Of a DNA stretch of 64,000 bases, positions 11,850 to 35,308 are shown piece after piece. A program made the translations under genes and the position numbers. Source of the DNA: Candidatus Nanohalarchaeota archaeon (GTDB lineage Archaea; Nanohalarchaeota; Nanosalinia; Nanosalinales; Nanosalinaceae); contig JALDAJ010000001.1 of NCBI GenBank assembly GCA_022729235.1, positions 372,001 through 436,000 on the forward strand. The letters are read 5' to 3'. The first letter of the stretch is position 1, and each line of letters begins with the position of its first letter. Below the pieces are notes generated by a model. It saw only the letters and a program-made list of their open reading frames with translations, searched no databases and was not told the DNA's origin.

Positions 11850-14558
11850 ATGGAAATCTCGATAATAGGAACCGGATACGTAGGTCTTCCGGCAGGCGCC
11901 GGACTAGCTAAACACGGACATAACGTGCGGTGTGTCGATATCGACGAGGAGAAAGTCGAGAAGATCAATAAAGGTGAATGCCCGATCTTCGAGGAAGGTT
12001 TGCCTGAACTTCTAGAAGAAGTAGTGAGCGAAGGAAAACTGGAAGCCACAACAGATACTGGAAAAGCGGTTAAGGAGTCTGACATAACGTTTCTCGCGGT
12101 CGGAACACCGATGCGCGAGGACGGAAGTATCAACCTCGACTACATCAAGCAGGCGGCGGAAGACATCGCAGAAGGGTTGAAAGAAAAAGAGGATTACCAC
12201 GTTATCGTTGTGAAAAGCACCGTTGTGCCGACAACCACTGAAGAGGAGATTATTCCTGTACTCGAAGAAGTTTCAGGGAAGAAAGCTGGCGAGGACTTCG
12301 GCGTCTGCATGAACCCCGAGTTCCTCAGAGAAGGTACAGCGTTAAACGACTTCCTGGAACCTGACAGGATAGTAATAGGCGAACTAGACGGCAAATCAGG
12401 GGAAACTCTAGAACAGATTTACGAAGATTTCGATGCACCGGTGATGCGGACATCACTGAAGGCAGCAGAGTTAATCAAGTACGCTTCGAACTCATTGCTC
12501 GCGACCAAAGTATCCTTCATCAACGAGGTCGGCAACCTATGCAAGGAACTCGGAATCGATGTCTACGAGATCGCGGACGGTGTCGGGATGGACCACCGGA
12601 TAGAGAGAAAGTTCCTGAACAGTGGTGCAGGCTTCGGCGGGAGCTGTCTCACAGGCGACCAGGAGATACTAGTCAAAGAAGATGGCCAGACGCGCCTTGT
12701 CAGAATAGAAGAGTTCTTCGAGGAGAAAAAAGGAGAAAGTCCAGAAGGAGATATCAAGGCTATCAGCTGTAACGATGAAGGCGAGTTTGAATTCAAGCCT
12801 ATCCAGAAAGCTACTTCGAGAGACTACCAAGACGAGATATACACGATAAAAACCAGTATGAATAAAGAAGTGGAAGTCACGAAAGACCATCCTATGCTTG
12901 TCGTTGAGGACGGAAATCTGGAACTAAAGAAGGCAGAAGAAGTTGAGAAAGGAGACCGCATCCCTGTCTTATCAGAGATACCAGAAGACTCTATAGAATA
13001 CTTCGATCTTCTGGAGATAATATCTAACTCAGATGAGTTCAAAAACGATGAAGTATACCTGAAACCAAGTTTCGAGATTGAAGAGATAGAAAAGGAATTA
13101 CGGGAATACCTAGAAGGATACAACCAAAAATTCAGTTACGACAAGATCCGTGATTTCAGAAGAGGCAATTACATTCCTTTAGATGCGTTCCTGAAAGTAG
13201 AGAAAGAACTAGAACTCAAGCGTTCTGACTTCCGGATATACACATCAAAAGGAGCAACTACATATATTCCTGCGGTAATCTATACAGACCAGGATTTCTG
13301 GAGATTCATAGGCTACTACCTGAGCGAAGGCCACATCAACGAGGATAATTCAGGACATGGTCCCCGAGCCAGAGAGAGGATAATGCTGAGCTTCCATCCA
13401 GAAGACGAGCAGGAGTACGTCGAGGACGTGGAAGAGTATCTCGAGCAGCTCGGTATCAAGCACAGGACGGACTCCAAGGAGACAAGCACCCAGATATGCT
13501 TCTCAAGCCGTGCCTTCTCGTACTTCCTCCGGTGGCTTGGCTGCGGAACCGGCTCATACTCTGCCCAGATACCAGATATTGCCTATCAGGAGACAGAGGA
13601 AAACCGGAAAGCACTGCTGTCAGGACTCTTCAGGGGAGACGGATACATAGAATACACCAACCACTCCAACGCAGTAGTATACGACTACGGATCGGTGAGC
13701 GAAGAACTGATTCAGGGAATGAAACATCTGCTCCACAGCCTAGGTATAGTACCAAGCTACAAGGTATCAGAGTCCTCAAAATCAACCAAACCCGCGCATT
13801 TCATCCGAGTATCATCCAAACCACAGGTAGAGAAACTCCAAGAAATGTTTCTTGAAGGAGAAAGACAAAAAATAACCCAGCGACTGGATTCCTACGACAA
13901 AGAAATCAGACCTACTGGACACAAGAAAGACACCGACTTTACAACGGTCAAGGTGAAAGAGATCAGGAAAGAGAAAAGAGACACGGAAGTATACTCCCTA
14001 GAAGTCAAGGACACCCACAACTTCGTGACCACAGACGGACTGGTAGTCCACAACTGCTTCCCAAAAGATGTCCGCGCGCTGATATCCTTCATGGAGGAAA
14101 ACAGTATCGAACCTCGTATACTTCAGTCAACGATCGACGTCAATACAGATCAGAAGACAAAGCTCGTTGAATTACTAGAAAAACGTGTTGACGCTATCGA
14201 AGGAAAAACCGTAGCAGTACTAGGATTAGCATTCAAGCCAGGAACCGACGACGTCAGGAAAAGTCCGGCGATACCGATAATCCAGGAACTCAAAGACAAA
14301 GGCGCGGAAGTCAAAGCGTACGACCCGGAAGCCATGGAAAACATGAAAGAAAAGCACCATCCTAACATCGATTACTACGATACCTACCAGGAAGCGCTGG
14401 AAAACACAGATGCCGCTTTAATCGTCACGGACTGGGAAGAGTTCGACCAGATTACCAGAGAAGACATCAAGACCATGAACAACCAGCTCATCCTCGAAGG
14501 CATGAAAACCAACCATAATCTCCCTGAAGACAAAATAGAAGGGATTACTTGGTCATGA
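11850..14558 (+). CDS. ugd: UDP-glucose/GDP-mannose 6-dehydrogenase family protein with in-frame intein
   Basis: A 902-codon frame; removing residues 266-735 (intein) leaves 432 residues, the normal length. The family oxidises a nucleotide hexose to the uronic acid in two NAD steps. The NAD loop GTGYVGLPAGAGLA is at residue 8 onward; KSTVVPTTT, NPEFLREG and AELIKYASNSLLATKVSF follow. The split catalytic motif GFGGS | CFPKDV is restored when the intein leaves, and GLAFKPGTDDVRKSP opens the C-terminal domain. Without splicing the active-site motif is broken, so activity depends on splicing. It probably makes glucuronic or mannuronic acid for surface glycans. Confidence 0.95.
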   Translation: MEISIIGTGYVGLPAGAGLAKHGHNVRCVDIDEEKVEKINKGECPIFEEGLPELLEEVVSEGKLEATTDTGKAVKESDITFLAVGTPMREDGSINLDYIKQAAEDIAEGLKEKEDYHVIVVKSTVVPTTTEEEIIPVLEEVSGKKAGEDFGVCMNPEFLREGTALNDFLEPDRIVIGELDGKSGETLEQIYEDFDAPVMRTSLKAAELIKYASNSLLATKVSFINEVGNLCKELGIDVYEIADGVGMDHRIERKFLNSGAGFGGSCLTGDQEILVKEDGQTRLVRIEEFFEEKKGESPEGDIKAISCNDEGEFEFKPIQKATSRDYQDEIYTIKTSMNKEVEVTKDHPMLVVEDGNLELKKAEEVEKGDRIPVLSEIPEDSIEYFDLLEIISNSDEFKNDEVYLKPSFEIEEIEKELREYLEGYNQKFSYDKIRDFRRGNYIPLDAFLKVEKELELKRSDFRIYTSKGATTYIPAVIYTDQDFWRFIGYYLSEGHINEDNSGHGPRARERIMLSFHPEDEQEYVEDVEEYLEQLGIKHRTDSKETSTQICFSSRAFSYFLRWLGCGTGSYSAQIPDIAYQETEENRKALLSGLFRGDGYIEYTNHSNAVVYDYGSVSEELIQGMKHLLHSLGIVPSYKVSESSKSTKPAHFIRVSSKPQVEKLQEMFLEGERQKITQRLDSYDKEIRPTGHKKDTDFTTVKVKEIRKEKRDTEVYSLEVKDTHNFVTTDGLVVHNCFPKDVRALISFMEENSIEPRILQSTIDVNTDQKTKLVELLEKRVDAIEGKTVAVLGLAFKPGTDDVRKSPAIPIIQELKDKGAEVKAYDPEAMENMKEKHHPNIDYYDTYQEALENTDAALIVTDWEEFDQITREDIKTMNNQLILEGMKTNHNLPEDKIEGITWS
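12645..14054 (+). mobile_element. Intein with LAGLIDADG homing endonuclease in the sugar dehydrogenase
   Basis: 470 residues from Cys1 (CLTGDQEILV, block A) to VVHN, followed by Cys+1. Block B is VTKDHPMLV with the TxxH motif intact. Two LAGLIDADG-like helices are visible, FIGYYLSEGH and LLSGLFRGDGYIEY, so the homing endonuclease looks complete. The C-terminal block reads VYSLEVKDTHNFVTTDG. All residues needed for class 1 splicing are present. The +1 residue is the enzyme's own catalytic cysteine, the usual logic of inteins sitting in invariant sites. Confidence 0.95.
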
Positions 14559-25331: not shown

Positions 25332-25432
25332 ACTTTAATTATAATTGAGAAACTTATTATTGACAGTATAACGCTGTTATACAAGTATATTTGGCACTAA
25401 AAACATAAATAACCGCAATATAGTCTCTCTTA

Positions 25433-25540
25433 ATGAGAATAACTCATGACGCTATATCGGAAATTGATGAACTTAAAATAGCAGCTAATAAAGCAAAGGA
25501 AGAGGGCAGAAAAACCATAAGATTAGAAGATCTAACTTAA
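25433..25540 (+). CDS. 35-residue mini-protein resembling the C-terminal half of an archaeal histone
   Basis: A small open frame: MRITHDAISEIDELKIAANK, then AKEEGRKTIRLEDLT. The segment AKEEGRKTIRLEDL resembles the end of the histone fold ([14 protein letters not shown] in the histone at 63584-63781). A TATA-like aaacataaata (25400-25410) lies about 25 bases before the ATG, supporting a leaderless transcript. It may be a real mini-protein, a truncated histone, or an ORF with chance likeness. It is adjacent to the origin region. Confidence 0.45.
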   Translation: MRITHDAISEIDELKIAANKAKEEGRKTIRLEDLT

Positions 25541-25552
25541 CCACTACTATTA

Positions 25553-25708
25553 TCAGACAACTGACCTGAGTATCTGGAAAATCAACTGCAGTATGGACCG
25601 GAAGATCTGGAAAAACGCTATTATAGTTCCTGCCACGAAGTTCGCCATAGTTTTATGGAGTTCGCTGGGTGCATACTCTGAATCAGAATTTCCGGTGTGA
25701 TCACTCAC
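25553..25708 (-). CDS. 51-residue small membrane protein
   Basis: A GTG-started frame with a polar N-terminus (SDHTGNSDSEYAPSELHKT) and one hydrophobic, regularly spaced segment ANFVAGTIIAFFQIFRSIL followed by QLIFQILRSVV. A TATA-like tract (tttaaac and atttattc on the minus strand, about 25720-25736) lies upstream at leaderless distance. The hydrophobic half looks like a membrane-inserted or amphipathic helix. No family is recognised. It is convergent with the mini-ORF at 25433. Confidence 0.45.
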   Translation of the reverse strand: MSDHTGNSDSEYAPSELHKTMANFVAGTIIAFFQIFRSILQLIFQILRSVV

Positions 25709-25800
25709 TGAAAGTTGATGAATAAATGATGTTTAAAACAGGTTGTGTTACTACAATCATGACAGAATCAAATTCACTAAGTTCAAGTTGTTCGAACAAT

Positions 25801-26075
25801 CTCCACTTGAAATAAGGGGGTTCTAGTACTATGATTTCTCAGCTCCAGGTGAAACATAGGTGTAAAACTGTAATACTGGAGGCTGGTTGCTGATTTCGTA
25901 ATCAACATAACCAACACCCCTACTGTTTCGGGTGGAAGTGTCTGGCGGCGGTAAGAAGTTACGGTATAACACCTCTATAATATATAACAGTGTTATACTA
26001 TTCAGGTTGTTGTATACAGTGTTTCCATATGAAATCAAGGGGTGGGGGTCCCGGCAACCCCTACTTCATCTGGAG
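25801..26075. other. Putative chromosomal replication origin with five ORB-like elements
   Basis: Five copies of a degenerate element with core CCA-N3-GAAA/G, 2-5 bases, then a G-run lie upstream of cdc6. They are at 25801-25821 (+), 25843-25863 (+, weak G-run), 25916-25938 (-), 26023-26043 (+) and 26056-26075 (-). The 25916 copy follows the archaeal ORB pattern most closely (CTTCCA, GAAAC, AGGGGT). Between the copies, 25965-26018 is AT-rich (TATAATATATAACAG...) and could unwind. Opposed ORBs flanking an AT-rich stretch next to orc1/cdc6 and PolD genes is the classic archaeal origin layout. Function is inferred. Confidence 0.78.
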
Positions 26076-26121
26076 AACTCATTTAAACCTTGGTTTCGAC
26101 TAGAGTTTACACGGCGATAAC

Positions 26122-27360
26122 ATGGATAGAAATGAGGGCGGGGGCGAGGTTTCAGTAGCGGATAGCGAACTGAAATCCAGGTTCTCCAATTACATCAATA
26201 AAGACACAGTTTTCAGGAATAAGGAGGCGCTCACTACTAACTGGAAACCAGAGACTATTCTACACCGAGACCAACAGGTCAATAACCTTGCGTCGATTCT
26301 GGCGCCAGCTCTCAAAAGAGATGATCCTAGTAATGTCTTCATCTACGGTAGCGTAGGGACGGGAAAGACATGTGTAACCAAACACGTTACAGAAGAGCTG
26401 AGGGCTGTAGCCCATGAGGAAGAGGTAGACCTCAATATTGTTTATATAAACTGTAAGATGAAGAAGGTAGCTGATACAGAGTACCGTCTGTTAGCGAAGC
26501 TTACCCGTCAGCTGGGTGAGGAAGTCCCTTCTACCGGCCTCCCTACGGATGAGGTTTACAACCGTTTCTTCGAGGCGCTGGAGAGCCAGGAGGGTGTAGT
26601 CATCATAGCTCTGGATGAGATAGACGCGCTGGTGAAGAAGGTTGGTGACGAGTTCCTGTACAATCTTACTAGAATAAACGATGACCTGAACGACACAAAA
26701 GTTTCTATAATAGGTATCTCCAACGACCTCAACTTTACCGAGTATATGGATTCTCGCGTCAAATCCTCTCTTTCAGAAGAAGAGATAATATTCCCTCCTT
26801 ACAACGCCCTGGAACTCCGGGAGATCCTGGATTCAAGGGCGGGGAAAGGGTTCGCGGACGAAGTTCTTGAGGACGGGGTTATATCCAAATGTTCTGCTTT
26901 AGCCGCCCAGGAACATGGTGATGCCCGGAGGGCGCTAGACCTTATACGTGTCGCGGGCGAGCTCGCGGAACGTGAGGGAGAAGAGCGAGTTGCCCGGTCT
27001 CACGTGGACAGGGCGCAGGATAAGATAGAGAAGGACCGTGTGGTTGAAACAGTCAGGGATCAACCAAAACACTCTAAACTCGTCTTATACACTATACTTG
27101 AGATGGCTGATGAGGATGATGAGGTCGCGACCGGGGATGTCTATTCTGAATACAAGGAGCTCTGCACCCAGGTCGATGTTTCTGAACTCACCCAGAGACG
27201 TGTTTCGGGTCTTATATCTGAGCTGGATATGTTAGGGGTTATCAATGCGAGAGTTATATCAAAAGGACGGTACGGTAGAACAAGGCAGATAAGTGTTGAC
27301 CTGTCACAGGATATTAGGACACAGCTACGTGAAATGGTCGAAGACAAGTTTTACATTTAA
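26122..27360 (+). CDS. cdc6: Orc1/Cdc6 origin-recognition and helicase-loading protein
   Basis: A 412-residue AAA+ initiator. Walker A GSVGTGKT is near residue 75, Walker B VVIIALDEIDAL near 160; sensor 1 lies in VSIIGISND and the GDARRALDLIRVAGE sensor 2 region near 270. A C-terminal winged helix (from about 305) reads DNA. It binds ORBs and loads MCM. A TATA-like atttaaa (26080-26086) overlaps the ORB-like region, so the protein may repress its own promoter. It is the first gene of a cdc6-polB-polC operon. Confidence 0.96.
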   Translation: MDRNEGGGEVSVADSELKSRFSNYINKDTVFRNKEALTTNWKPETILHRDQQVNNLASILAPALKRDDPSNVFIYGSVGTGKTCVTKHVTEELRAVAHEEEVDLNIVYINCKMKKVADTEYRLLAKLTRQLGEEVPSTGLPTDEVYNRFFEALESQEGVVIIALDEIDALVKKVGDEFLYNLTRINDDLNDTKVSIIGISNDLNFTEYMDSRVKSSLSEEEIIFPPYNALELREILDSRAGKGFADEVLEDGVISKCSALAAQEHGDARRALDLIRVAGELAEREGEERVARSHVDRAQDKIEKDRVVETVRDQPKHSKLVLYTILEMADEDDEVATGDVYSEYKELCTQVDVSELTQRRVSGLISELDMLGVINARVISKGRYGRTRQISVDLSQDIRTQLREMVEDKFYI

Positions 27361-27374
27361 GTTGGGGGAGGAAG

Positions 27375-28958
27375 TTGAACGAGAACGCTGTCAAACAGCT
27401 GACGGAGAAAGGATGCATTGTTGAGAAAGACGCAGCTGAAACGCTGACGCAGGAAGATGTTGACCGTATTGAGAAGCTTGACTCTCCTCCTATGTACATA
27501 ACTGGGAAGATGATATCTCGCCTGAGGGAGGAAGCCCCGGAGAAAGAAGTGGTATCTGACTCGCAGAAGCTTGTTATGAAAGAAGGTGATGGAGATGGGG
27601 GACAGGGAAAGGAAGAAAGCACCAGTTCAGAAGATAATGGACAAGACAGCTCAACTGAGAATGCTTCCGACGAACCTTCTGTTGACGGCTCTGAACCCCG
27701 CCCGAGTGCTTCTGCCGCAGCCATGAGAGATACCGGTTCCCGATCAATTGATACCAAGGTAGAGGTTCTAGACCAGGCTGAAATCTCGAAAGAGGAGAAG
27801 GATGTCCCCGAGTTCCTTGAATACTACAACGACCGTTACGACCGGATGAAGAAGATTTTACTTCGGCGTATGGAGATGAAGTCTGCAGTCACTATCCAGA
27901 GGCTGGACCGCAGGGATGAAGGAGAGGAAGCTGCCACGATAGGTCTCGTGAAGAACAAGTATTCCACACGTTCCGGGAAGTATATAGTGGAGCTGGAGGA
28001 TAAGACAGGGACGTTCAAGGCACTGGTTGATGAACGCGAGGGTGACCGTATAGTGCCGGATGAGGTGATAGGAGTCAGGGGTAGTATGGGTGATGATATA
28101 ATATTCGCGAACTCGGTAGTGAGACCTGACTTACCGATACCGGATGGCGTCAAGACCACCTCACAGAAAGTAAGGGCGGCGTACATATCTGACTTCCACT
28201 TCGGTTCTAAGGATACGATGTATGACCGGGCGGACAAGTTCGCGGAGTGGATGAACTCCGAACAGGCGAGGGATATAGGTTATCTGGTCATCCCGGGTGA
28301 TGTGGTGGAGGGTGTGGGCACATACCCTGGTCAGGAGGAAGAACTCGATATAACTAATATCTACGACCAGTATGCAAGGTTTGAGGAGTGGGCTGAACAG
28401 CTCCCGGAAGACCTGGAAATCATAATCGGACCAGGAAACCACGAGATAGTCAGGTTAGCGGAACCTCAGCCACAGATACCTGAAAAGGCGCTGCCAAACA
28501 TGTCGGACTGGAACAACGTCCACCTGGTTCAGAACCCGCAGTACGTCCGTCTACACGGTATACGCTCGAAAGGGATACTTAACCTGCTGTACCACGGATA
28601 CTCTTTTGATGAGCAGATCGACCAGATACAGGAGCTTAGAGAGAAGGCATACGACGACCCGCACCACGTCATGATAGATCTTTTGAAGAGGAGACACCTG
28701 GCACCAACTTACGGCTCCAACCTTCTTTCTCCTGAAGGGAAGGACCGGCTGGTGATAGATAGGAAGCCAGACATATTTGCATCAGGTCACCTCCACGCCC
28801 ACTCCAACGAGAGCTATAAAGGAGTCAATGTTATCTGCGCCTCAACATTCCAGGCACAAACCGATTTCCAGAAAAGGATGGGTCACGACCCACAGCCCGG
28901 ACTGGTAACTCTGGTGGACTACAAGAAGCGGAACACGGAGGTGAAAAGGTTCGCGTGA
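27375..28958 (+). CDS. polB: DNA polymerase D small subunit DP1 (3'-5' exonuclease)
   Basis: A 527-residue DP1. An acidic linker (about 70-120) is followed by an OB-fold near 185-255 and a calcineurin-like phosphoesterase domain carrying proofreading. Metal motifs are all present: ISDFHFGS (near 271), PGDVVEGVG, GPGNHE, LYHGYSFD and SGHLHAH (near 470). The start is TTG at 27375, chosen because a strong Shine-Dalgarno ggggagg stands 5-10 bases upstream. The gene is 14 bases after cdc6 and overlaps polC by four bases, matching the fixed partnership of the PolD subunits. Confidence 0.96.
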   Translation: MNENAVKQLTEKGCIVEKDAAETLTQEDVDRIEKLDSPPMYITGKMISRLREEAPEKEVVSDSQKLVMKEGDGDGGQGKEESTSSEDNGQDSSTENASDEPSVDGSEPRPSASAAAMRDTGSRSIDTKVEVLDQAEISKEEKDVPEFLEYYNDRYDRMKKILLRRMEMKSAVTIQRLDRRDEGEEAATIGLVKNKYSTRSGKYIVELEDKTGTFKALVDEREGDRIVPDEVIGVRGSMGDDIIFANSVVRPDLPIPDGVKTTSQKVRAAYISDFHFGSKDTMYDRADKFAEWMNSEQARDIGYLVIPGDVVEGVGTYPGQEEELDITNIYDQYARFEEWAEQLPEDLEIIIGPGNHEIVRLAEPQPQIPEKALPNMSDWNNVHLVQNPQYVRLHGIRSKGILNLLYHGYSFDEQIDQIQELREKAYDDPHHVMIDLLKRRHLAPTYGSNLLSPEGKDRLVIDRKPDIFASGHLHAHSNESYKGVNVICASTFQAQTDFQKRMGHDPQPGLVTLVDYKKRNTEVKRFA

Positions 28959-31900
28959 AGACTGAAGAATACTTCGAGAGTTTGAGGTCGCAAACAGAGA
29001 GAGCTTACGATATCGCGGAGGAGGCGCGCTCCCAGTCGAAAGACCCTGAGGGTGGTGTAGATATCCCGGTCGCGGAGGATTTACCGGAGAAGGCATCATC
29101 CCTGGTAATCGCCGCGAAGTTCCCGGAACTCGAGGATAGTGGTGTCGCGGAACGTATACGTGAGCTGGAGGATGAGTACGGCAAGAACGATGAGCGTGTA
29201 TCTTTCGAAATCGCCCGCGAGATAGCAGAGGGAGAGTTTCATGAGTTTGACGACCTTGAGCGGGCGTGCGAGGCAGGTATCCGTGTTGGCGTCTCGTACA
29301 TGACAGGAGGTATCACTACAGCCCCGCTTGAAGGTATCGGGGATGTCCGGATACGCGAAAACAGTGATGGCACGGATTACCTCGCTATCTACTACTCCGG
29401 CCCTATCAGGTCCGCGGGAGGAACAGCTTCAGCGATGTCCGTCCTCCTGTCGGACTACGTACGCCTCAACGTAGGACTTGAAGAGTTCAAACCGTCGGAG
29501 AAAGTGGTGGAGCGCTATGCCACAGAGGTCGATGACTACTACAACCGTGTCACCTCGAAACAGTACTACCCAGACCGTGAAGAGACCAAGATGATAGCAG
29601 ATAACGTCCCTGTAGAGGTAACGGGCTCACCAACTGAACAGCTCGAGGTGTCGAACTACAAAGACCTGGAACGCGTCAAGACGAACCGGATCAGAGGTGG
29701 TATGTGCCTGGTCTACCTTGACGGTCTACCGTTGAAGGCGCCGAAGATCAAGAAACGTATCGAGAAATGGGGTGAAGCGTTCGGTCTGGAGCACTGGAAG
29801 TGGGTGGAGGAGTATCTCGAACTACAGGAAGAACTACACTCCTCAGGGGATGACGATGAGGAAGAAGAGGAAGAAGGCTTCAGTTACACACCTTCCGACA
29901 AGTTCCTGGATTCGATGACAGCAGGAAGACCTGTATTCGGTCATCCTGGGAAGAAAGGAGGTTTCCGGCTACGGTACGGTCATTCCCGGAATAATGGACT
30001 TGCCGCTACCTCGGTTCACCCTGCGTCGATGGAGATCACGGAACGTTTTATGGCGACAGGTACCCAGCTGAAGACAGAATACCCGATGAAGGGTACGGTC
30101 ACGACACCTTGTGACTCTATACATCCGCCGGTTGCCAGACTGGAGAACGGCGATGTAATCCGGGTGGAGACGCGTGAAAAGGCGCGTGAGATAGAGAATA
30201 AAATTGACGAAATACTTTTTCTCGGGGATATGCTGGTGGCTTACGGTGAGTTCGTGGAGAATGGTAAGCGCCTTCTACCATCTCCATACGTGAGTGAGTG
30301 GTGGGAGAAGGATCTGGAAAAGGCGCTCAAGGAGGGGGAAGTAAAGCTCGGGCGGGACTTCTCCGGGCGCGACCCGACACCGAAGGAGGCGTTCAAGATA
30401 TCGGAGAAACTGGATATACCGCTCCATCCCAGGTGGACTTATCACTGGCGTGAGACATCGGTCGAGCGGTTCGAAGCACTTTACGAGGCGGTCAACTCTG
30501 GAGAACTGGAAGGCGAGAAAGTCAAGAGGTGCCTGGAAGACATACTGCTTGAGCACAGGGTTGAAGACGGAAAAATAGAGCTGGAGAAGCAGGACTTGCT
30601 TGTCCTCCAGAGGCTATTGAAGGATAATGATGAGCCGGAAATCGATGACGCGAGGGAGATACCGGGTTACATAGAAAAAGAGACCAGGGTTGAACTAAGG
30701 GAGCAGGCTCCGCACTACGTCGGTGCAAGGATGGGGCGACCTGAGAAGGCAGAAAAGAGGACTCTAGAAGGGAGACCACAGCTTCTTTTCCCCTGTGGAA
30801 AACAGGAGGGTGGGAGGATGAGAAATCTTTCGGAGTCTTACCGCAAAGGTGAAGTGGAGCAGGAGATAATCCACAACAAGTGTCCTGAATGCTCCAGTTT
30901 CACCTATTTCTCCTACTGCGTGGACTGCGATGTAGCTGCAGATCCGGTCTGGTTCTGCTCTGACTGCGGAAAAGAGTTCGACGAGGAGATGGATAGATGT
31001 GGTTCTTGCGGCAACGAGGACTTCAACCGGCACCAAAGGACAGATATAGAAGTAGAGGAAGTAATCGATGATGCGCTTGACAACCTGGGTTCCCGGCTAC
31101 CAGAGCTCCTGAAGTCGCCGAGAGGTATGAGCGGTAAGCACCGCCACGTCGAACCTGTGGAGAAAGGACTTCTCAGGCAGAAATACGGTCTCTACGTCAA
31201 CAAGGATGGTACAGTGCGGTACGATGCCACAGATATACCTATGACTCATTTCAGACCGCGGGAGATATCTACGTCCGTGGAGAAACTGCGTGAAATCGGT
31301 TACACTGAGGACGTAAACAGCGAACCACTGGAGTCGGAGGACCAGGTTCTGGCGTTGAAGCCGCAGGATATAGTGATACCGGATACCGACAAGTCGCTTC
31401 CTGCCTCAGACTACTTTGTTAACGTCGCAAAGTTCATCGACGACCTACTGGAAGAGTTCTACGGTCTCAAACCTTACTATAACGCTGAAAAAAAGGAGGA
31501 TCTTATAGGCGAGCTCGTAATAGGTCTCGCACCGCACACCTCAGGAGGTACTGTAGGTCGCATAATCGGGTTCACGGATGCGAAAGGTATCTATGCACAT
31601 CCCTACTGGCATGCAGGAAAAAGACGTAACTGTCTACCTGGTGACGCAGAAGTGAAGATGGCTGATGGATCAACACAGAGGCTTAGAGAGCTATACGAGA
31701 GTGCAGGAGAGGAGGAAGAGGTCGACTCAACAGGGACTGTGGAGAAGGAGATGGATGAAGAGGTCCTGACGGTTGATGGGAAGAGTATCAATGCTTCAAA
31801 AGCATCTAAGGTTATCAGGACACCCGCCCAGGACTTCAAGATAGAGTTTGAGACTGAAGGGGGCAGAAAGTTCGAGGTATTCCCAGATCACCGGGTAAAG

Positions 31901-34900
31901 ACGGGTGAGGGTGTGAAGAAAGCCCGTGAGGTTGAGGAAGGAGATAAAGTTTTCACTCCTCTAGAGGTTGATGTCGAAACAGAGGACAAAAAATACCTGG
32001 ATCTAGCAGATATGCTCTTGAACTCTAAGAGGGTGATGGTAAGAGGTGTAGAGGAGAAGGCGGATGCAGCTATCAAAGACCTCGGCGGTCTAAAGGAGGC
32101 ATCTACAGAACTAGGAGTTTCAAAGAAATCTCTGGGTAATTACAAGTATCGAGATAGTATCCCTCTGGACCTGTACCGGGATTTAATGCAGGAGAGTTCT
32201 CAGGATGATAAATTACTGGAAGATACTTCTTTAGCTGCTAAAAGAGACACTGTAGAAATACCTGCTGCGATAGAAGCTGATTCTGACTTCATGAAGCTCC
32301 TGGGATACTACCTGGCAGAAGGCTACACCCGGAAGTCCGAGAAACAGGGAGAAGAATTCTATCAAGTATGCTTCGCGTTTGGAGAACAGGAGCTTGAGGA
32401 TAACATCCGAGAGGTGATAAACAGTGTCTTCGGTATCGAACCGTCCAGACAGGACCATGTCTTGGTTATCAGCTCCAGATTAGTCTATGAGCTCTTCAAG
32501 TCATTAGAAGTCGGAGCAGGTGCGAAAGAAAAGAGGGTCCCGGAATTTGTGAAATCTTTACCAAAAGAAAAAGTCGCTGATATGCTTTCAGCCTACTTTG
32601 CTGGAGACGGGTCAGTTGAAAAGGGAAGGCTCCATGTCCAGGCAACTAGTTCCTCTAGGAAGCTCCTTGATGATATCGACTTCCTGCTGAAGAGGTTCGG
32701 GATTTACACCAGGTACTATCAGAATGATAGAGAGGCAGGGGGAATACTTGTTGATAAGTACGGTGAAGAACACTATGAGGGGAGAACATTTACAACTAAC
32801 AAGCTTCATATCCGGTCTTCTCATGCGGTTACGTTCGGTAAAGAAATAGGCTTTGATCTGGGAAGAAAACAGAAAGCTCTAGAAGCTGATTATAAGAGGG
32901 AACGAAATCCGAGGATTGAGACGGACGGAGAACTTGTGAAAGAAGAGATAAGGTCAAAAGAAACCAGGGAATCTGAAGAACGCTTTATGTATGACATAGA
33001 AGTTGAAGAAACACATAATTTCGTTACAAGAGACAACCTGGTTACTAATAACTGCGACGGTGACGAAGACGCGATATTACTGCTTATGGACGGCCTCCTT
33101 AACTTTTCACGGCAGTTCCTCCCTGATATGACTGGCGCGCGCAGTATAACGAAGGATACACGTATATTTGTCAAGAGAAATGAAGAATTACTGGCTCCTA
33201 CAGCTGAGGAATTGATCGATGAAGTTCTTGAAGATGAAGGGTATGAAACCCGGTCTGACGGATTTGAGGTCTGCAGGAGTTTTGATGACGATATTAAGGC
33301 AGTTTCATTTAGTGAAGATGGAGATGTCGGGTTCACTGATGTATCTGCCCTTATTAGACATGAGAACGATAAGCAGGTTTTCAGGGTGAAGACCTCAAGA
33401 GGCGAGATATCTGTAACCGGAGATCACAGCGTTTTCGTCACAGAAGGAAGGGAGATAGAGGCTAAACCTGTGCGGGAGATAGAAGAAGGTGAATGTATAG
33501 TGGTTCCCTCAAATCCGGATTTAGAAGCTGAAGGACTGCCTGACAAAGTAGATCTATTTGAAGTGATTCCTGACGAAGAATGCTATGTAAAGGTTCCAGA
33601 GGAGGAGCTAGAGGAAATAGGACCTGAGATAAAGCAAGAGGTCACAGAGGATGTAAAGCAGTCCTACAGCGAACATAATATTTACAGGTACAGGACAGGA
33701 AGGAGAGATGCACCTCTCAAGTTCTATAAGGAGGTAGGGGTAGTACCATCCTGCAAGGTGAGACTTCGAGCTGATACTGACCCTGTTAACAGGTTCTTTG
33801 AAGACTGCGATGAACTATACCGCCTTCTAGGTTACCTTCTCTCAGAAGGAGCTCTTGACAGAGGAGATATCTACAACACGGATATAGAATTAATTGAGGA
33901 TGCCAGAGACTGTATCGAGAAGCTTACGGGAGTAAGACCGGATATCAAAGAAGATGTTAGAGAAGAGAGAAAGGTTTGCTATAGTGTCAGGGTTCCGGCT
34001 GCTTTCATGAAGGCTCTGGAAGAGCTTGGTCTTGCCCGGAATAAATTTGATGAGAAAAGAGTTCCCTCGTTTGTATTTGGAGCAGATAAGAGTAAGGTTA
34101 GGAGTTTCATCGAGGCATATAGAAGCGGTGACGGCTCCATATATGAGGAGAAAGGATTTTCCAAGCTCTATACTAAGAGCGGAGAAATGGCTTCACAACT
34201 CTCACTTCTCTTGAGAAAACTTGGGTACAAGTCATCCGCACGCCAGGCAGGAGAGACATGGGAGGTGCTTTATTCGGAGTGGAGGGATAAGGATCCTTAC
34301 TGGCCCCTATGGGATATACTAGATGAAGCTCGTGAAACGCTAAGAGAAGATGGTTTTGACTATGAGGATGTCAAGAGAGAGTTCTCTAACGATAGGACTA
34401 ATGAACGTATGAAAACCGCGTCCAAGGAGAGGGTGGAAGATCTCTATGAAAAAGGAGTTAGTTCTTTAGAGAAGGCGGCTGAAGGCGATATCTCTGTAGA
34501 AAGAGTGGTGGAAATTGAAGAAGCGGATTATGGTGATGACTACGTATATGACCTAGAGGTACCGGAAAAACAGAACTTCCTGTGCGGTCCTCATCCTGTC
34601 TTCGCTCATAACACTATGGATGCGCCATTGATTCTTTCAACAGTTCTCAACCCTGACGAGGTCGATGACGAGGCGTGGGCTATCGAGACGGTCAGTGAGT
34701 ATCCGAGAAGCTTCTACGAAGAGACGCAGGAGTACAAGTATCCGTGGGAGCTTGACACCGATATCGAGATAGGTGAAGATATCGTCCACAGCGATGAGCC
34801 TTTCCGCCACGGCTACACACACGAATCGCAAAATATAGAGAACGGGCCGATGCAGAGCGAGTACGTGACGCTCGACGAGATGAGTGAGAAGACCAGGCAA

Positions 34901-35308
34901 CAGCTCGGGCTTGGTGAGAAGCTGAAGGCGGTGGAGGAGAACAAGGTCGCTGATTTACTGCTACAGAAGCACTTCATCCCTGATATCAAAGGTAATCTCC
35001 GTTCTTTCTCCAGCCAGGAGATGAGGTGTGGTGACTGCAACACCAAGTTCCGTAGAGTGCCGATGACTGCCCAAACAATTGCTCCAACAGGCAAAACCAC
35101 AGCGGAGTGCCCCGAGTGCGGGGGTAAAGTGTTGCTGACGATTTCTGAAGGCACTATCAAGAAGTATATGGAGCCATCGAGAGATATAGTCGAGGAGTTT
35201 GAGGTATCTCCCTATGTCCGACAGCAGATTATAATCCTCAAAGATACACTCCAGAGCCTTTTCGGGAAGGACGACAGGCAGACTGGTATCAAACAGTTCA
35301 CTACATGA
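28955..35308 (+). CDS. polC: DNA polymerase D large subunit DP2, interrupted by two inteins
   Basis: A 2117-codon frame; removing two inteins (residues 893-1366 and 1397-1886) leaves 1153 residues, normal for DP2. This is the catalytic subunit of the archaeal replicative polymerase PolD. Visible: the N-terminal GPIRSAGGTASA segment, a multi-cysteine zinc region near 640-690 (CPECSSF, CVDCD, CSDCG, CGSCG), the catalytic pieces HAGKRRN | CDGDED and TMDAPL, a second zinc site (CGDCN, CPECGG), and a C-terminal QTGIKQFTT that fits a PCNA-binding motif. Both inteins split the active centre, so PolD requires two splicing events. The start is GTG inside the polB stop. Confidence 0.97.
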   Translation: MKTEEYFESLRSQTERAYDIAEEARSQSKDPEGGVDIPVAEDLPEKASSLVIAAKFPELEDSGVAERIRELEDEYGKNDERVSFEIAREIAEGEFHEFDDLERACEAGIRVGVSYMTGGITTAPLEGIGDVRIRENSDGTDYLAIYYSGPIRSAGGTASAMSVLLSDYVRLNVGLEEFKPSEKVVERYATEVDDYYNRVTSKQYYPDREETKMIADNVPVEVTGSPTEQLEVSNYKDLERVKTNRIRGGMCLVYLDGLPLKAPKIKKRIEKWGEAFGLEHWKWVEEYLELQEELHSSGDDDEEEEEEGFSYTPSDKFLDSMTAGRPVFGHPGKKGGFRLRYGHSRNNGLAATSVHPASMEITERFMATGTQLKTEYPMKGTVTTPCDSIHPPVARLENGDVIRVETREKAREIENKIDEILFLGDMLVAYGEFVENGKRLLPSPYVSEWWEKDLEKALKEGEVKLGRDFSGRDPTPKEAFKISEKLDIPLHPRWTYHWRETSVERFEALYEAVNSGELEGEKVKRCLEDILLEHRVEDGKIELEKQDLLVLQRLLKDNDEPEIDDAREIPGYIEKETRVELREQAPHYVGARMGRPEKAEKRTLEGRPQLLFPCGKQEGGRMRNLSESYRKGEVEQEIIHNKCPECSSFTYFSYCVDCDVAADPVWFCSDCGKEFDEEMDRCGSCGNEDFNRHQRTDIEVEEVIDDALDNLGSRLPELLKSPRGMSGKHRHVEPVEKGLLRQKYGLYVNKDGTVRYDATDIPMTHFRPREISTSVEKLREIGYTEDVNSEPLESEDQVLALKPQDIVIPDTDKSLPASDYFVNVAKFIDDLLEEFYGLKPYYNAEKKEDLIGELVIGLAPHTSGGTVGRIIGFTDAKGIYAHPYWHAGKRRNCLPGDAEVKMADGSTQRLRELYESAGEEEEVDSTGTVEKEMDEEVLTVDGKSINASKASKVIRTPAQDFKIEFETEGGRKFEVFPDHRVKTGEGVKKAREVEEGDKVFTPLEVDVETEDKKYLDLADMLLNSKRVMVRGVEEKADAAIKDLGGLKEASTELGVSKKSLGNYKYRDSIPLDLYRDLMQESSQDDKLLEDTSLAAKRDTVEIPAAIEADSDFMKLLGYYLAEGYTRKSEKQGEEFYQVCFAFGEQELEDNIREVINSVFGIEPSRQDHVLVISSRLVYELFKSLEVGAGAKEKRVPEFVKSLPKEKVADMLSAYFAGDGSVEKGRLHVQATSSSRKLLDDIDFLLKRFGIYTRYYQNDREAGGILVDKYGEEHYEGRTFTTNKLHIRSSHAVTFGKEIGFDLGRKQKALEADYKRERNPRIETDGELVKEEIRSKETRESEERFMYDIEVEETHNFVTRDNLVTNNCDGDEDAILLLMDGLLNFSRQFLPDMTGARSITKDTRIFVKRNEELLAPTAEELIDEVLEDEGYETRSDGFEVCRSFDDDIKAVSFSEDGDVGFTDVSALIRHENDKQVFRVKTSRGEISVTGDHSVFVTEGREIEAKPVREIEEGECIVVPSNPDLEAEGLPDKVDLFEVIPDEECYVKVPEEELEEIGPEIKQEVTEDVKQSYSEHNIYRYRTGRRDAPLKFYKEVGVVPSCKVRLRADTDPVNRFFEDCDELYRLLGYLLSEGALDRGDIYNTDIELIEDARDCIEKLTGVRPDIKEDVREERKVCYSVRVPAAFMKALEELGLARNKFDEKRVPSFVFGADKSKVRSFIEAYRSGDGSIYEEKGFSKLYTKSGEMASQLSLLLRKLGYKSSARQAGETWEVLYSEWRDKDPYWPLWDILDEARETLREDGFDYEDVKREFSNDRTNERMKTASKERVEDLYEKGVSSLEKAAEGDISVERVVEIEEADYGDDYVYDLEVPEKQNFLCGPHPVFAHNTMDAPLILSTVLNPDEVDDEAWAIETVSEYPRSFYEETQEYKYPWELDTDIEIGEDIVHSDEPFRHGYTHESQNIENGPMQSEYVTLDEMSEKTRQQLGLGEKLKAVEENKVADLLLQKHFIPDIKGNLRSFSSQEMRCGDCNTKFRRVPMTAQTIAPTGKTTAECPECGGKVLLTISEGTIKKYMEPSRDIVEEFEVSPYVRQQIIILKDTLQSLFGKDDRQTGIKQFTT
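31631..33052 (+). mobile_element. DP2 intein 1 (LAGLIDADG endonuclease)
   Basis: 474 residues between HAGKRRN and CDGDED. It starts CLPGDAEVKMADGS (block A) and contains LLGYYLAEGYT and MLSAYFAGDGSVEK, the two LAGLIDADG-like helices. The end is YDIEVEETHNFVTRDN... TNN followed by Cys+1. Two departures stand out: block B reads VFPDHRV, with Phe where the TxxH Thr should be, and the penultimate residue is Asn rather than His. Inteins lacking the penultimate His are known to splice, sometimes slowly or conditionally. Confidence 0.93.
33143..34612 (+). mobile_element. DP2 intein 2 (LAGLIDADG endonuclease)
   Basis: 490 residues between LPDMTGAR and TMDAPL. It starts with Ser1 (SITKDTRIFVKRNEE), block B is VTGDHSVFV with an intact TxxH, and the two LAGLIDADG-like helices are LLGYLLSEGAL and FIEAYRSGDGSIY. 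It ends YVYDLEVPEKQNFLCG... FAHN with Thr+1. All splicing residues are present (Ser nucleophile first, Thr at +1). Only 30 extein residues separate it from intein 1. Confidence 0.93.

Follow-up and report, generated by a model that had tools for sequence, protein, structure and literature searches.

Does the intergenic DNA upstream of a cdc6-polB-polC gene block in a nanohaloarchaeon serve as the chromosomal replication origin, and which sequences make up its core? We addressed this question in a 64,000-bp stretch of the 1,027,595-bp genome, hereafter the window, in which the intergenic region 25332-26121 precedes a cdc6 gene. A sequence-only reading had proposed five origin recognition-like (ORB-like) elements in both orientations around an AT-rich stretch at this place, and suggested that origin, initiator and both polymerase subunits would form a compact replication island. 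Our results support the origin, and this region is almost certainly the single chromosome replication origin of this small, salt-loving archaeon. However, the implied novelty of the replication island is not supported. What is new lies inside the origin, where a palindrome shared with a second archaeal phylum was found between the core ORBs. The same palindrome also sits in front of the gene for a small helix-turn-helix (HTH) protein, which suggests that this protein helps to start or regulate DNA replication.

ORB elements and strand composition

Elements with the pattern YTYCANNNGAARNNNNRGG were located by a pattern scan. ORB1 (25801..25820, +, CTCCACTTGAAATAAGGGGG) matched without mismatch, and ORB2 (25843..25862, +, CTCCAGGTGAAACATAGGTG) with 1 mismatch. 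ORB3 (25918..25937, -, pattern hit at 25919, TTCCACCCGAAACAGTAGGG) and ORB4 (26023..26042, +, TTCCATATGAAATCAAGGGG) both matched without mismatch and form the inverted core pair, while ORB5 (26057..26075, -, CTCCAGATGAAGTAGGGGT) showed 1 mismatch. A weak sixth element, ORB6 (26087..26105, -, CTCTAGTCGAAACCAAGGT), with 2 mismatches, lies at the cdc6 promoter. The copy that the sequence-only reading singled out as a close match to the euryarchaeal ORB is real, and reads CTTCCACCCGAAACAGTAGGGGT on the minus strand. All three perfect matches of the window and two of its three one-mismatch matches fall in this region. In the whole genome, the pattern with at most one mismatch gave 85 hits, of which five lie in 275 bp here, and no other cluster exists. 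From the density of the other 80 hits, the chance of five in one 275-bp span is about 4e-11 per span, or 4e-5 over the genome. It should be noted that the pattern was tuned after these sites had been seen, and that letter-by-letter matching to an external archaeal ORB consensus (PMC4153887) did not make any single site significant, since the best site scored 17/23 and shuffled windows reached 15-17. The weight of the evidence therefore rests on clustering, on conservation in relatives and on strand composition.

Third-codon-position GC skew was measured in sampled stretches around the chromosome, separately for genes on both strands so that gene orientation does not mimic it. The skew was negative from about 938 kb round to 392 kb and positive from 400 to 890 kb, apart from one weakly negative stretch at 527 kb. 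A two-breakpoint model explained 72% of the variance (R2 0.72), and 0 of 500 shuffles of the stretches did as well. The antipode of the origin, at 911.8 kb, falls inside the interval (890-938 kb) where the skew switches back, as predicted for a single bidirectional origin at about 398 kb (window 26.0 kb). A second, divergent Cdc6/Orc1-like gene at 730128-731051 of the same contig was examined as a rival origin, but it has no ORB cluster and no skew change nearby, and no stronger origin was found. Thus, the tests that could have spoken against the sequence-only reading, namely the skew change, the uniqueness of the ORB cluster and the search for a stronger origin, all came out in its favor.

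Gene block and conserved layout

Pfam searches confirmed the genes of the block. The gene at 26122..27360 (+) codes for an Orc1/Cdc6 initiator of 412 aa (Cdc6_C, 4.8e-29; Cdc6_lid, 2.1e-23). The gene at 27375..28958 (+) codes for the DNA polymerase D (PolD) small subunit DP1 (polB) of 527 aa (Metallophos and DNA_pol_E_B), and 28955..35308 (+) codes for the large subunit DP2 (polC) of 2117 aa, with PolC_DP2 domains and two Intein_splicing stretches. DP1 lies downstream of cdc6 in all 30 cdc6 loci read, and DP2 follows in all six longer stretches. Similarly, in Thermococcus kodakarensis, the predicted origin with ORB and mini-ORBs is directly upstream of cdc6, which forms an operon with the PolD small and large subunits (TK1901-TK1903; PMC5663688), so the block as such is not new. 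In contrast to the Thermococcales block, which includes the P. furiosus origin region, the present locus has up to six ORBs with an inverted core pair 105 bp apart, a palindrome in the unwinding region, and two inteins in DP2. Thermococcales origins were not scanned individually for the palindrome, but the scan of 84,980 genomes described below returned none.

T. kodakarensis lives without cdc6 and the origin (PMC5663688), and it could be argued that the present locus is likewise a relic in which ORBs and cdc6 are kept while replication mostly starts elsewhere or by recombination. We consider this very unlikely, since the skew switch with a matching antipode shows long use as a bidirectional origin, and the ORBs and gene order are strongly conserved.

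Upstream of cdc6 in relatives, the core is an inverted pair, ORB(-) then ORB(+), about 85-130 bp apart, often with a distal ORB(+) and one or two ORB(-) next to the gene. Counterparts of the distal ORB1 were observed in several relatives, and those of ORB3 and the proximal ORB5 were also observed in relatives, while better versions of the weak ORB6 occur at this place in several relatives. Between the pair lies AT-rich DNA. In the window, this unwinding region (DUE) covers 85 bp (25938..26022), with an A+T content of 62% overall and 74% in 25965-26018, against a window mean of 52%. Also within the intergenic region, a 35-codon open frame at 25433-25540 resembles the end of an archaeal histone (CBFD_NFYB_HMF, E=0.043, below the cut-off), and is possibly a gene remnant.

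A conserved palindrome in the origin core

It is noteworthy that a 15-bp palindrome, TATAACAGTGTTATA, lies at 25983..25997 between ORB3 and ORB4, 25 bp from ORB4. The sequence-only reading had quoted TATAATATATAACAG from the AT-rich stretch, but did not see that it runs into this palindrome. A degenerate tandem copy with 2 mismatches (TATAACACCTCTATA) lies 18 bp upstream at 25965..25979, and a second exact palindrome, TATAACGCTGTTATA, is located at 25367..25381, at the left edge of the same intergenic region and 35 bp from the divergent glycosyltransferase gene. Almost every relative carries TATAACNNNGTTATA in the region between the ORBs. With at most one mismatch, it was present in 22 of 27 origins with a detectable ORB pair, against 0.09 expected from dinucleotide shuffles of the same regions. 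Among the remaining origins, that of genome G019 and those of three genomes of other lineages (G028, G038, G056) lack it, and genome G009 has degenerate copies. Two or three tandem units about 19 bp apart are common. The distance to ORB(-) grows by about one unit when there is an extra copy, whereas the distance to ORB(+) stays 22-26 bp in most nanohaloarchaea.

The composite pattern (palindrome, 12-42 bp, ORB) was then scanned blindly against 84,980 bacterial and archaeal genomes (257 billion bases). The scan returned 47 stretches, every one titled as an archaeon and most of them Aenigmatarchaeota or nanohaloarchaea; three bear other phylum or class names and were not re-classified. Of these stretches, 43 have a cdc6 match in the locus and 43 have an inverted ORB on the other side. 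Because this set was chosen by the palindrome, a second set was selected by cdc6 alone from 34 genomes of another phylum, that of genome G040. Of the 12 with an ORB pair, 11 carry the palindrome. In one lineage of that phylum (G090-G098, family f33), the cdc6 upstream region has ORBs in another arrangement and no palindrome, and its origin may be organized differently.

An ordinary ORB/Cdc6 origin whose AT-rich center happens to favor such sequences, with a palindrome that only eases unwinding and has no protein of its own, would also be conceivable, as unwinding regions are AT-rich in all archaea and the arms of the palindrome are AT-rich. However, this is improbable given the shuffling result, the conserved AC/GT positions of the arms, the reversed control pattern, which is mostly absent, and the association of the same word with an HTH promoter. 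A promoter or TATA-box reading was rejected, because the place of the palindrome is fixed relative to the ORBs and not to genes. A mobile repeat was also rejected, because only the 15-17 bp core recurs.

A candidate binding protein

In the window's genome, the exact 15-mer occurs three times, twice in the origin's intergenic region and once at 197283-197297, whereas the reversed control has no copy. By asking which genes recur next to dispersed copies, we found that the third copy ends 5 bp before the start codon of a gene at 197303 of the same contig, outside the window. This gene codes for a 113-aa protein with a Cro/XRE-type HTH (HTH_3, over the Pfam cut-off), and its AlphaFold model is a confident, nearly all-helical HTH structure (pLDDT 90.6). 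A fold search with the model gave only partial HTH matches, none with E <= 0.001. Homologues were found in 44 of 60 genomes of relatives. Among 25 nanohaloarchaeal genomes, 21 have the palindrome just upstream of the start of the gene with at most two mismatches, 19 of them with at most one. In 30 genomes from the blind scan, mostly aenigmatarchaeal, 26 have a homologue. Of the 25 examined, 19 have the palindrome within about 80 bp upstream at <=2 mismatches (14 with at most one), against 2 of 814 control windows at <=1 mismatch. In genome G031, the exact palindrome lies before a glutamate dehydrogenase gene (gdh) directly followed by the HTH gene. Such a site at a regulator's own promoter is the usual sign of self-regulation, suggesting that the HTH protein is the best candidate binder, although the palindrome at this promoter could be the operator of another regulator.

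Absences of the two sites were partly correlated. Nanohaloarchaeon G021 (93% complete) has neither a detectable HTH gene nor the origin palindrome, and family f35 has neither as well. Four genomes of family f33 keep the HTH gene but lack the palindrome at both places. However, eight genomes have the origin palindrome but none in front of the HTH gene. Over 37 genomes with both places readable, 23 have both sites, 8 the origin site only, 1 the promoter site only and 5 neither (Fisher p = 0.014, not corrected for shared ancestry).

Directly upstream of the HTH gene in 19 nanohaloarchaeal genomes lies a gene for a very slowly evolving 122-aa protein (72-87% identical across the family; positions 1554-1922 of the stretch L090 read from the window's genome). 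A histone fold was suspected, but no relevant Pfam match was found, the helical model with a long terminal helix was of low confidence, and the function is unknown. No PDB sequence relative was found for the HTH protein or this neighbor.

Possible roles of the palindrome and the HTH protein

Taken together, the locus is best explained as the chromosomal origin of a nanohaloarchaeon in which Cdc6/Orc1, made by the adjacent gene, binds the ORBs. The inverted pair ORB3/ORB4 is expected, by inference from other archaea, to load two MCM helicases facing each other. We propose that the small HTH protein binds the palindrome as a homodimer, probably regulates its own synthesis, and marks or regulates the origin core. 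It most likely affects helicase loading or release, or ties initiation to its own level or to growth. Binding, dimerization and role are inferred without binding or replication data, and we give this reading a probability of about 0.72.

Alternatively, the HTH protein may be an ordinary transcription regulator whose site in the origin is an operator of the cdc6-DP1-DP2 transcript or of the divergent gene, with no direct part in initiation. The HTH_3 family, the site at its own promoter and the dispersed copies in some genomes, of which 37 of 42 sites read are intergenic and 5 coding, agree with this. In family f5, a halophile family (G022, G024-G027), seven to 43 exact palindromes per genome were found, mostly intergenic, against none for the reversed control. 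There the site looks like that of a genome-wide regulator or chromatin protein, and the origin may be only one target. However, the palindrome stays between the two core ORBs at a nearly constant distance from ORB4, although its distance to cdc6 varies and the gene on the other side differs between genomes. It lies about 125 bp from cdc6, beyond the promoter-like TTTAAA near the start, and in 10 of 30 pattern-selected genomes the origin copy is the only exact one. A purely transcriptional role is less likely but remains open.

A centromere-like (parS-like) site bound by a ParB-like segregation factor is a more doubtful alternative. In genome G003, five of seven exact copies lie within 6.4 kb of the origin (129369-135648 of its contig C1), and several exact copies also lie within a few kb of the origin in genome G007 (157396-160496 of its contig C8). 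These lie on the side away from cdc6, some inside coding genes, which hints at a centromere-like or nucleoid role in these genera. In addition, the HTH region scores just under Pfam's HTH_ParB cut-off (21.7 bits against 22.6), and partial fold matches to ParB and Noc were observed. However, the 113-aa protein shows no CTP-binding domain, its conserved neighbor is not a ParA protein, ParA-like genes lie elsewhere, and most genomes in which copies were counted appear to have no cluster beyond the origin itself. Like the palindrome, ParB-parS and archaeal SegB sites are palindromic, some near the origin and one at the gene's own promoter (SegB, upstream of segA; PMC12284271). However, the present candidate is not a ribbon-helix-helix protein, and the SegB motif (TCTAGASTCTAGA) is unrelated.

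In Sulfolobus, the ucm, an 11-bp motif midway between two inverted ORBs, is required for firing and is bound by UBP, a protein of about 110 aa that contacts MCM and has over 300 other sites, enriched between genes (PMC12141716). The palindrome has the same position, also has other intergenic copies in some genomes, and has a small-protein candidate. However, the published UCM oligo (GCTTGGTTTAATTATACAAACTCAATATTT), compared by eye, does not contain the palindrome, and UBP binds as a monomer through beta-hairpins, whereas the present candidate is an HTH_3 protein modelled as nearly all-helical; a UBP homologue was not searched for. UBP is confined to Sulfolobales/Desulfurococcales according to that study, while the present pair is in two DPANN phyla. 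The HTH protein would thus be at most a functional, non-homologous counterpart. The 2025 Sulfolobus study closes by asking whether more divergent archaea have analogous proteins at their origins, and our results provide a candidate site and a candidate protein. No description of the palindrome in an archaeal context, or of nanohaloarchaeal, aenigmarchaeal or DPANN origins, was found in the literature searched, which mostly does not cover subscription journals. A further reading, which is tentative and in our view somewhat less likely than not, is that Nanohaloarchaeota and Aenigmatarchaeota have a dedicated, independently evolved origin-core protein between the two Cdc6/MCM loading sites, implying that a protein spacer or gate between the ORBs is a general feature of archaeal origins filled by unrelated proteins.

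In Methanomassiliicoccales, ORBs also lie beside one of two cdc6 paralogues (orc1/cdc6.1), with a second, divergent paralogue without ORBs (PMC4153887). In that different lineage, ORBs are also found downstream of cdc6, and no palindrome was seen in the parts of the study consulted.

Inteins in the window

The two inteins of DP2, at about residues 906-1365 and 1399-1886 by comparison with relatives, carry LAGLIDADG domains. Some relatives (G002, G015, G022, G027) have neither intein, and G003 matches across both insertion regions. In addition, a UDP-glucose/GDP-mannose dehydrogenase of 902 aa at 11850-14558 is split by an intein (about residues 277-735) with a LAGLIDADG domain.
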